64,000 bases of DNA, taken from positions 2,498,001 through 2,562,000 of the forward strand of contig NZ_OY761823.1 in the NCBI RefSeq assembly GCF_963664965.1, written 5' to 3'. The position numbers and the translations under genes are program-made. Numbering within the stretch: position 1 is the stretch's first letter; each line of letters starts with the position of its first letter. The notes beneath the pieces are model-generated. The model had not been told where the DNA came from. It did no database searches and was given only the letters and a program-made list of their open reading frames with translations. Positions 34,767 through 39,731 of this stretch are shown here, in pieces. This DNA is from an uncultured Pseudodesulfovibrio sp. (GTDB lineage Bacteria > Desulfobacterota > Desulfovibrionia > Desulfovibrionales > Desulfovibrionaceae).

Positions 34767-35880
34767 ATGCTTGAATACCCCGAAATGAAAGCCTCCTCTT
34801 CGGAGCTTCTGGAAAAATTTGAAACCCTTTGGGGGCGTCTTTGACTATGTCGAGACGAAGCAGCGACTCGATGAAATAGAAACAGAACTCTCCAAACCGG
34901 GCGCATGGGACAAGCCGGATGCCTTGACGCCGGTTCTCAAGGAAAAGAGCCAGCTTTCCACCAAATTGCAGATGTATGACGACCTTGCAGAAGCCAAGGA
35001 CGATCTTGAAGCATGGCTTGAACTCGCACAGGACGCCGCAGACGATGAAGCCCTCGGCGCATTGGAAGCACAGGTAGCTCTCTTCAGGGAACGACTTGGA
35101 AGTGTTGAACTTGCTACCATGTTCGCCTTTGAGCATGACAAAAACAACGCCATTCTTGAAATCCATCCCGGAGCCGGTGGTGTTGAATCTCAGGATTGGG
35201 CCGAAATGCTGTTGCGTATGTACAACCGTTATGCCGAACGAAAAGGGTTCAAAGTCAGTCAACTGGACTTCCAACCCGGCGACGAAGCGGGCATCAAAAG
35301 CGTCACACTGCAAGTAGAAGGCCTCTACGCCTACGGGCTGCTCAAGGGAGAGGCCGGGGTTCACCGCCTTATCCGCATTTCTCCATTCGACTCTTCTGGT
35401 CGTCGTCATACGTCTTTCGCCTCAGTGGATGTCTATCCCGACATGGATGAAGACATCGAGATCGAAGTCAAGGACGAGGATCTTCGAATAGACACTTTCA
35501 GGTCCAGCGGCCCCGGAGGCCAGAGCGTTAACAAAACGAGTTCTGCCGTTCGTATTACGCACATACCGACAGGAATCGTTGCTCAGTGCCAGAATGAAAA
35601 ATCTCAGCACAGAAACAAGGCGACAGCGCTACGTCTCGTCAAAGCCCGTCTTTATGAACAGGAACTGAAAAAAATCGAAGAAAGCCGCAGGCAGGACTAT
35701 CAGGCCAAAGAGGCCATCGCCTGGGGAAGTCAGATACGGACATACACCCTGCAACCATACCGACTGGTCAAAGATCATCGTTCCAACTGCGAAAACGGTA
35801 ATGTGGAAGCATTCCTTGACGGAGATCTGGACGAGATGATCCGAAACCACCTATTATTCATCCATGCCAAAGGAAAATAA
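34767..35880 (+). CDS. prfB: Peptide chain release factor 2 (programmed +1 frameshift)
   Basis: Recognises UGA and UAA. Frame one runs from ATG 34767 through codon 25 (CTT) to an in-frame UGA at 34842-34844; translation continues after a +1 shift at GAC 34843, giving 370 residues. With that numbering the SPF tripeptide falls at 205-207 and GGQ at 250-252, as in E. coli. A conceptual translation that ignores the shift would start inside. The 3' end overlaps the next gene by 17 bases. Confidence 0.97.
34830..34845 (+). promoter_or_regulatory. prfB autoregulatory frameshift site
   Basis: TGGGGGCGTCTTTGAC matches the RF2 signal: an internal Shine-Dalgarno (GGGGG), a short spacer, slippery CTT, UGA and a following C. 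Low RF2 lets the ribosome shift and make more RF2. Confidence 0.96.
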
Positions 35881-37678: not shown

Positions 37679-37954
37679 ATGAATAAGAGCGAATTGATCA
37701 AGGCTCTTTCGGAAGAGAAAAAAATGCACGTTGACGAGGCCACCAAAGTGGTCGGAGCCTTCGTCGATTCCGTCAAGGAAGCCCTTCTGCGTGGCGACCG
37801 TGTCGAAATCAGAGGATTTGGCAGCTTCAAGATCAAGGATTATGAAGGCTATACAGGCCGTAATCCCAAGACTGGCAGCGTCGTTCAGGTCAACTCCAAA
37901 AAGCTTCCCTTCTTCCGCCCTGGTAAAGAGCTGAAAGAATATATCAACGATTAG
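37679..37954 (+). CDS. HU/IHF family DNA-binding protein
   Basis: Start at ATG 37679 with AGGGGGAAACC before it gives 91 residues; the longer frame from 37622 lacks a ribosome site. It shows EIRGFGSFKIKDYEGYTGRNPKTG and PFFRPGKELKEYI, closer to IHF subunits than the HU at 24.6 kb. Nucleoid structuring or site-specific bending is expected. The next gene starts one base after its stop. Confidence 0.93.
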   Translation: MNKSELIKALSEEKKMHVDEATKVVGAFVDSVKEALLRGDRVEIRGFGSFKIKDYEGYTGRNPKTGSVVQVNSKKLPFFRPGKELKEYIND

Positions 37955-37955
37955 A

Positions 37956-38810
37956 ATGCGACGAGTTCTCATCTGCCTGTTTTTGGCTGTTGTTTTTTTT
38001 GCGTCCAACGCGCAGGCGGCTGATCCGTTACTGTCCATTCTGTATACGGCAAATACGTACGGCATCGTTAGGCCATGCCCTTCCTGAGGTGGTAAAACAC
38101 TCGGAGGCGTGGCCCGGCGGGCTACGTATTTTTTTGATTTTCAATCACCTGCACCGCACCTGCTCGTTTCCGGTGGCTGGGAGTTTATGGACACCAAAGG
38201 GAATAAACCATCCCCTGAGGTCATAAACGGTCTTGCCAAAGCATTTGATTTAATGAAATATGACATTGGCCTCCTTGCTCAGGGCGAGGCTGATGGCATG
38301 GATAAATCCTTACTGCCACTTGATTCGACCCGGAAAACAGCAAGTAGTGAGCCTGTTACGGTTCTTACTATTGCGACAGGAGACCGAATCGGCTTTATCC
38401 GCCTCCCCTCTCTTCCAAAAGGTGAAGATGTTCCATCCAAGAAATTGATTAATAAAATTTCCATGATGGTGAAAAAAGAGCGGGAACAAGTGAAATTGCT
38501 GATTGCCCTGTCCGACTGGGGTTGGATTGCCGAGCGCGAATATCTGGCTCAAAATCCAAAGTACGTGCCGGATATTCTCATGGGCAGTGGGTATGGATCC
38601 GGCGTAAGCGGTCGTATTCAAGCCGACAAACGTTGTTTCTGGATTCGTCCCTATGACAAAGGGCGAACCCTTTGTGAAATCGAAATTTTCAACTGGCCGG
38701 ATCGTACCACGAAATTCGAATGGGAAGCACCGGCCGACATCAAGGCTCTTTCTGTGGGGCTTGGTGACCAATATCAAGACAACCCGGACGTGAGCGCCAT
38801 CCTCCATTAA
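37956..38810 (+). CDS. UshA-like protein with in-frame UGA, candidate selenoprotein
   Basis: One continuous frame of 285 codons interrupted only by UGA at 38085-38087. It starts at ATG 37956 with a signal peptide (cleavage near residue 21, SNAQA-AD), so the product is exported. The UGA is codon 44 in the context R-P-C-P-S-U-G-G-K-T-L-G-G-V-A-R-R-A; Cys41 and U44 form a CxxU redox-type pair where relatives would carry CxxC. The frame stays open and well conserved in style to the end at 38810 (SSEPVTVLTIATGDRIGF and others). I recall UshA-like families with Sec or Cys at this place. A plain nonsense mutation is the alternative, but the hairpin downstream argues for Sec. Confidence 0.8.
38108..38126 (+). 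promoter_or_regulatory. Candidate bacterial SECIS hairpin
   Basis: CGTGGCCC, loop GGC, GGGCTACG: eight pairs (one G-U). The loop begins with G and starts 28 bases after the UGA, within the spacing and loop rule described for bacterial SECIS elements recognised by SelB. Confidence 0.65.
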
Positions 38811-38849: not shown

Positions 38850-39731
38850 ATGGAATTAAGAGGAGCCTACACTGCCCTCTCGACACCTTTCGTCAACGGC
38901 CAGATCGATGAAAAGAGCTACCGCGAATTCATCGAATGGCAGATCGAACAGGGTATCGATGGGCTTGTTCCGTGCGGAACGACAGGTGAAGCCGCGACCC
39001 TGACTCATGAAGAGCAGGGACGGATCATCAGAATATGTGTAGATCAGGTCAAAGGGCGCGTGCCGGTGATCGCCGGAGCCGGTTCCAACAGCACCAAGGA
39101 AGCCATCGAGCTTACCAGACTGGCAAAAGAGGCCGGTGCGGACGCAACGCTTCAGATTACGCCCTACTACAACAAACCGACTCCCGAAGGCCTTATCGAG
39201 CATTTCAAGGCCATTGCCGCTGAAGTCTCTATGCCGTTCGTCGTATACAATGTCCCCGGACGTACCGGACTGAATCTTCTTCCCGCCGACCTCAAACGTA
39301 TTGTTGACGCTGTTCCCGAGGCAATCGCAGTCAAAGAGGCTACCGGCAACATGACACAGGCCGCACAGGTGATCGAGTACTGTGGAAAGGATTTCCAGCT
39401 GCTCTCCGGTGACGACTTTACCGTGCTTCCGCTTCTTTCTGTGGGAGGCCGGGGTGTCATTTCGGTTATTTCCAATATCATGCCCAAGGCAATGAGTGAC
39501 ATGTGCAGGCTTTTCGAAGAAAAAGATCATGCAGGCGCTTTGGACATCAGTCTCAAAATGGCTCCGGTCAACAGGGCCATGTTCATGGAGACAAATCCGA
39601 TTCCGGTCAAGACCGCACTGAGCATGATGGGAGTTTTCCCGAAAGCCGAATTCAGACTTCCCATCGTTCCCTTGAAGGAAGAGAATTTGCCGAAACTGAG
39701 AAAAATTCTTGAAGAAGCCGACATACTGTAA
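38850..39731 (+). CDS. dapA: 4-hydroxy-tetrahydrodipicolinate synthase
   Basis: First step of the diaminopimelate/lysine branch, condensing pyruvate and aspartate semialdehyde. TIM barrel of 293 residues with PCGTTGEAATLTHEE, catalytic Tyr in FVVYNVPGRTG and Schiff-base Lys in AIAVKEATGN. AGGAGGG precedes the ATG. Monocistronic here, ending at a strong terminator. Confidence 0.97.
   Translation: MELRGAYTALSTPFVNGQIDEKSYREFIEWQIEQGIDGLVPCGTTGEAATLTHEEQGRIIRICVDQVKGRVPVIAGAGSNSTKEAIELTRLAKEAGADATLQITPYYNKPTPEGLIEHFKAIAAEVSMPFVVYNVPGRTGLNLLPADLKRIVDAVPEAIAVKEATGNMTQAAQVIEYCGKDFQLLSGDDFTVLPLLSVGGRGVISVISNIMPKAMSDMCRLFEEKDHAGALDISLKMAPVNRAMFMETNPIPVKTALSMMGVFPKAEFRLPIVPLKEENLPKLRKILEEADIL

Follow-up and report, generated by a model that had tools for sequence, protein, structure and literature searches.

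A UGA-interrupted gene of UshA-like (seleno)protein family 2 in an uncultured Pseudodesulfovibrio, with a conserved SECIS-like hairpin, Sec/Cys interchange and replaced metal ligands

The window analysed here is a stretch of 64,000 nucleotides from the genome of an uncultured Pseudodesulfovibrio sp. (contig NZ_OY761823.1, forward-strand positions 2,498,001 to 2,562,000; positions below are counted from the first letter of the window). Its subject is a gene at 37956-38810 for which a preliminary description, made from the sequence alone, had proposed a single reading frame broken only by a UGA in the context C-P-S-U-G-G-K and followed, 28 nt past the UGA, by the GGC loop of an eight-pair hairpin resembling a selenocysteine (Sec) insertion sequence (SECIS). 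Translation with TGA read as U confirmed this frame, with UGA 38085-38087 (residue 44, context CPSUGGK) as its single in-frame UGA, and the hairpin was recovered at 38108-38126. As had also been foreseen, the gene is liable to truncation: a plain list of open reading frames (ORFs) yields only a 233-residue ORF starting at 38109. The features on which the argument rests are as follows.

37956-38810, + strand: gene for UshA-like (seleno)protein family 2, ATG at 37956, TAA at 38808-38810, 284 residues with predicted Sec at residue 44 (NF049981, E 4.6e-93, 311.4 bits)
37956-38021, + strand: probable Sec-type (export) signal peptide, residues 1-22, likely cleaved after AQA or AQAA, judged by eye
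38076-38087, + strand: C-P-S-U motif, Cys41 and predicted Sec44, with the UGA at 38085-38087
38108-38126, + strand: predicted bacterial SECIS hairpin, 8 pairs, arms 38108-38115 and 38119-38126, loop GGC at 38116-38118, loop starting 28 nt past the UGA

The translated protein matches NCBIfam NF049981, "UshA-like (seleno)protein family 2", over profile positions 1-261 of 262 and far above the cut-off of 140 bits. It shares with this family the full-length match, the CxxU motif and the alternation of Sec or Cys, and no difference was found; it is a member. The selenoprotein family NF049981 already has a name, and the protein represents a known kind: in the available portion of a 2026 review (PMC13188914), NF049981 is listed with CxxU as "GenBank annotated" and the related NF041198 with CxU, and the available part of a 2008 ocean survey (PMC2398784) counts UshA-like COG0737 selenoproteins with CxU. 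NF041198, UshA-like (seleno)protein (PCGU), has a related N-terminal region and matches the window protein only weakly (34.7 bits, cut-off 275; CxU motif, model length 519); a scan of the host genome with this model gave four matches, none over the cut-off. A Pfam search with the window protein returned no family match, and Metallophos was matched in 3 of 59 alignment members (best E 5.2e-05). The NF049981 model matches 132 of 199 genomes of the host's taxonomic family (131 above the cut-off) and 122 of 297 in a phylum sample (4 above it); most of the matches listed in these two sets carry exactly one in-frame TGA. A tblastn search of a plasmid collection gave no match, and a search for relatives in named genome contigs retrieved two loci only, both in contigs titled Pseudodesulfovibrio.

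Alignment of homologues bears directly on the reading of the UGA. A first alignment comprised the 86 matches of at least 80 bits, leaving out a duplicate row of the window gene and two weak pieces of a second domain, and showed 68 Sec and 18 Cys in the UGA column; with 15 more genes the column holds 75 Sec, 26 Cys and no other residue in 101 homologues, such that Cys alone replaces the UGA codon. Of the 132 genomes with matches in the taxonomic family a part was fetched, the host's own genus being complete (17/17), and loci L002-L017, which came from other searches, were left out of the scan. Cys41 is present in all 60 family members and in 24 of 26 distant members, and the CxxU/CxxC motif formed by Cys41 with Sec or Cys at 44 is complete in 60/60 family members. 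On a quick tree of the 101 homologues, whose branches are long, Sec and Cys must have changed into one another at least 7 times, or 3 times when well supported branches alone are counted. The Sec-to-Cys change is called rare in the part of the 2026 review available (PMC13188914). In genus g25, tandem family copies, one with Cys and one with Sec, are found at six loci (L078-L082, L092).

The host genome has the genes required for Sec insertion, namely selA, selB, selD and a tRNA-Sec (selC, anticodon tca). Its selD is itself interrupted by an in-frame UGA (AAGUAAK), followed after 20 nt by a hairpin of 8 pairs with a GGA loop. In a survey of 53 chosen genomes, several of them incomplete, selA scored over the cut-off in 20 of 22 genomes with the Sec form and in 3 of 13 that were Cys-only among the matches listed (Fisher 8e-5, not corrected for relatedness), as well as in 6/6 genomes with both forms and 9/12 with neither. 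The residue was read directly for 13/13 Cys-only and 15/22 Sec-form genomes, and taken from the single listed TGA for the other 7. Two sets of genomes weigh against a strict link between selA and the Sec form: the two Sec-form genomes in which no selA was found, whose completeness is 65 and 54 per cent, and the three Cys-only genomes (among the matches listed) of genus g28, all of which retain selA. Within genus g19, 3 of the 4 Sec genomes gave selA and none of the 8 Cys genomes did, the latter being 67 to 95 per cent complete. One of these g19 Cys-form genomes, G095, carries a selA fragment (contig 24, 10721-11230, 213.4 bits, profile 17-184), which looks as if selA were decaying there.

Conservation of the hairpin follows the same division. 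Its core, CCCGG[CA]GGG, is present in 42/45 family genes of the Sec type and in 1/15 of the Cys type, and in 48/52 and 1/23, respectively, after 15 genes were added; L102, one of the four Sec exceptions, maintains the pairing through exchange of a C-G for a U-A pair. In g19 the core is found in 4/4 Sec genes and 0/8 Cys genes. Among 121 codons testable in the 45 Sec genes, synonymous constraint is strongest at residues 54, 53, 52, 55 and 58, of which 52-55 lie inside the hairpin and 58 immediately follows, whereas in Cys genes it is raised, among codons 52-55, at 53 only. Arg54 and Arg55 are encoded by CGG or AGG in 43/45 and 44/45 Sec genes, compared to 163/527 for other downstream Arg codons. 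Across 52 Sec hairpins (51 distinct), standard pairs make up 90.9 per cent of pair cells; changes on both sides occur at 4 pairs (equalled in 12/500 shuffles), and the covariation score is 0.286, where shuffles give 0.176 (0/500 reach the observed value) and sliding the hairpin gives at most 0.092. The 48 nt following the UGA have a best fold of -18.5 kcal/mol, a second small hairpin included, and the folding energy of the window hairpin is unremarkable (z -1.69; 14/200 shuffles fold equally well). Some results speak against Sec insertion: folding-energy tests with dinucleotide or codon shuffles lack discrimination, the mean z under codon-preserving shuffling being -0.70 in 45 Sec genes and -1.16 in 15 Cys family genes, so that the two groups are not told apart; the two outermost pairs do not form in 16 and 18, respectively, of 51 rows; and Rfam SECIS_1 found no match in the host genome. 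The last of these is uninformative, because none of 14 control genomes was matched either. Since synonymous constraint peaks at the hairpin and its pairs covary, these comparisons indicate that the hairpin is not due to chance and is under selection as RNA. The earlier proposal of Sec at residue 44 is thus supported by a column restricted to Sec and Cys, by the Sec machinery and by hairpin conservation, and that Sec is inserted at UGA 38085-38087 in a member of NF049981 is, as a joint statement, highly probable.

Directly 3' of the hairpin lies a further element.

38128-38137, + strand: terminator-like ATTTTTTTGA, with a T run of 6-7 in 16/19 own-genus members

The own-genus set of 19 consists of the 17 genomes and two Pseudodesulfovibrio metagenome-assembled genomes nesting among them. 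Outside the host's genus, no more than 4 consecutive T follow the hairpin in 31 of 33 Sec genes, the two exceptions being g19 genes (L115 with 6 T, L116 with 5 T), and no U-tract follows the selD hairpin in the stretch folded. As it is rare in other genera and absent after the selD hairpin, the T run is not a general part of the SECIS. In 22 genes of several genera with Tyr-Phe at the start of 58-60, Phe59/60 is encoded by TTT in 35/36 cases against 114/190 elsewhere, and Tyr58 by TAT in 22/22 against 76/130 elsewhere, relatedness not being corrected for.

The label "UshA-like" given in the preliminary description is correct for both family and fold, the predicted fold being that of the metal-binding domain of 5'-nucleotidase/SoxB. 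This fold is common to the window protein and to SoxB thiosulfohydrolase and the 5'-nucleotidase/UshA metallophosphoesterases, which differ from it in having chains of about 500 residues or more (284 in the window protein) and in retaining the metal ligands, in place of which the window protein has CxxU. We take the metal ligands of motifs I-V to be Asp, His and Asn residues, and mapped them through alignments; the window protein has N33, Y35, W75, Q109, G110, D187, G212 and G214 at these positions. Among the 60 family members ligand residues are scarce (D33 in 2, H35 in 2, D75 in 1, N109 in 1), and His is found in none of them at 110, 187, 212 or 214. On this mapping every metal ligand is replaced in the window protein, which makes hydrolysis by it unlikely. 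The Cys41-x-x-Sec44 pair follows the first metal motif closely in sequence, and positions 41 and 44 are the only ones at which at least 20 of the 60 family members have Cys or Sec. One relative from the phylum sample, L063, retains a metal-type motif, NDTHG, along with CPTU, and is a possible intermediate. Some distant relatives of the PCGU or LCGC type (L059, L060, L061, L070, L074, L075) carry four CxxCH haem motifs in a C-terminal tail, and L055 has two such motifs in the available part of its sequence; the haem-tailed relatives include some with PCG[UC]-type motifs.

Three other readings of these data were considered. The gene could be a pseudogene or the product of a sequencing error, with the UGA a true stop and the remainder decaying, as the short ORF from 38109 on offer in a plain ORF list might suggest. 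Among 101 homologues, however, the codon in question is UGA in 75, drawn from many genera, and encodes Cys in the other 26, and conservation extends over the remainder of the frame; judged by these comparisons, this reading is very unlikely, to the point of being negligible. The hairpin and U-tract could instead act mainly as an intrinsic terminator or attenuator rather than as a SECIS, given that a terminator scan labels 38107-38127 with ATTTTTTTGA terminator-like and that the T run recurs in the host's genus. Against this, the scan found 3 such sites where 2.1 are expected by chance, the hairpin is retained in Sec genes of other genera that mostly lack the T run and is lost in Cys genes, and the interchange of Sec and Cys would be left unexplained; there is at best a slim chance that it holds. 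A combined function, in which the SECIS hairpin of the host's genus doubles as a selenium-sensing intrinsic terminator, is improbable, if less so. Were it true, a ribosome halted at the UGA would uncover the GC hairpin with its U-tract and RNA polymerase would stop, and low selenium would lead to less transcription of the remainder of the gene and perhaps of downstream dapA.

The third reading accepts Sec insertion and concerns its use. Cys41 and Sec44 could bind a metal or metalloid, or be structural, without redox cycling: snake-venom 5'-nucleotidase has, in the same loop, a Cys that lines up with the Sec column, metal interactions of selenoproteins are discussed in the available text of PMC13188914, and PMC2398784, in the part available, separates the UshA-like proteins from families with a Cys-based redox motif. 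With only 41 and 44 commonly Cys or Sec there would be few ligands for a metal site, and Sec would be a costly choice where its role is purely structural. We regard this reading as possible but doubtful, and lean towards a periplasmic selenol-thiol redox pair formed by Cys41 and Sec44. Several points weigh against such a redox role: no redox gene was found among the conserved neighbours of the 60 family members, the window protein is without a haem tail, and UshA-like proteins, with SelD and FdhA, are given as exceptions among the major families with conserved Cys redox motifs in the portion of PMC2398784 available. The four-haem tail fused to some distant relatives suggests, by analogy, that the Cys-Sec domain may exchange electrons with c-type cytochromes. 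In the mechanism we propose, SelB with Sec-tRNA-Sec, recruited by the downstream hairpin, would decode UGA 38085-38087 as Sec44; the Cys41-Sec44 pair would form a periplasmic redox centre of the selenol/selenenylsulfide kind; and this centre could possibly pass electrons to or from c-type cytochromes.

The genes on either side of the selenoprotein gene are the following.

37679-37954, + strand: HU-type DNA-binding protein (PF00216, E 1.4e-30), one base between the HU stop and the selenoprotein ATG
38850-39731, + strand: dapA-like dihydrodipicolinate synthase (PF00701, E 7.2e-97), a frequent downstream neighbour

The HU cluster lies upstream in 55/60 family members and the dapA cluster neighbours 40/60; dapA is probably without functional link to the selenoprotein gene. 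A gene for a ParA/MinD-like ATPase is also nearby in the window. Both clusters are absent from all 26 distant members, where flanks are at most 1.5 kb, so that the neighbours give no clue to function. The HU gene is informative as to the start codon. In the host's genus the first in-frame start lies 0-1 nt past the HU stop in 15 of 16 rows (in the 16th the HU end is probably mis-detected), in a second genus it overlaps the HU stop by one base in 12/12 rows, and in further genera the spacing varies. Because spacing is constant in these two genera, ATG 37956 is probably the true start. The N-terminal MRRVLICLFLAVVFFASNAQA that follows from it resembles, by eye, a signal peptide of the Sec type, which would direct the protein to the periplasm. 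A gene for release factor 2, which reads UGA, is located at 34767-35880, some 3 kb upstream of the selenoprotein gene; it contains what looks like a classical +1 frameshift site, CTTTGAC at 34839.

The literature available on UshA-like selenoproteins, consulted in part, gives no account of function, of metal-ligand loss or of an overlap between SECIS and terminator, which is not proof that none exists. What is added here to a known family is the weight of evidence, together with a lost metal site, the Cys forms without selA and hairpin, and the terminator-like overlay. The analysis provides independent comparative support for a selenoprotein family whose gene a plain ORF list truncates. According to the portion of PMC2398784 available, most earlier selenoprotein families are homologues of thiol oxidoreductases or have a thioredoxin-like fold. 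In the present family selenium has an unusual setting, since the phosphatase fold has lost its metal ligands while a Cys-Sec pair is conserved, and the family's Cys forms, found without selA and without the hairpin inside one genus, constitute a natural experiment on the exchange of Sec and Cys.
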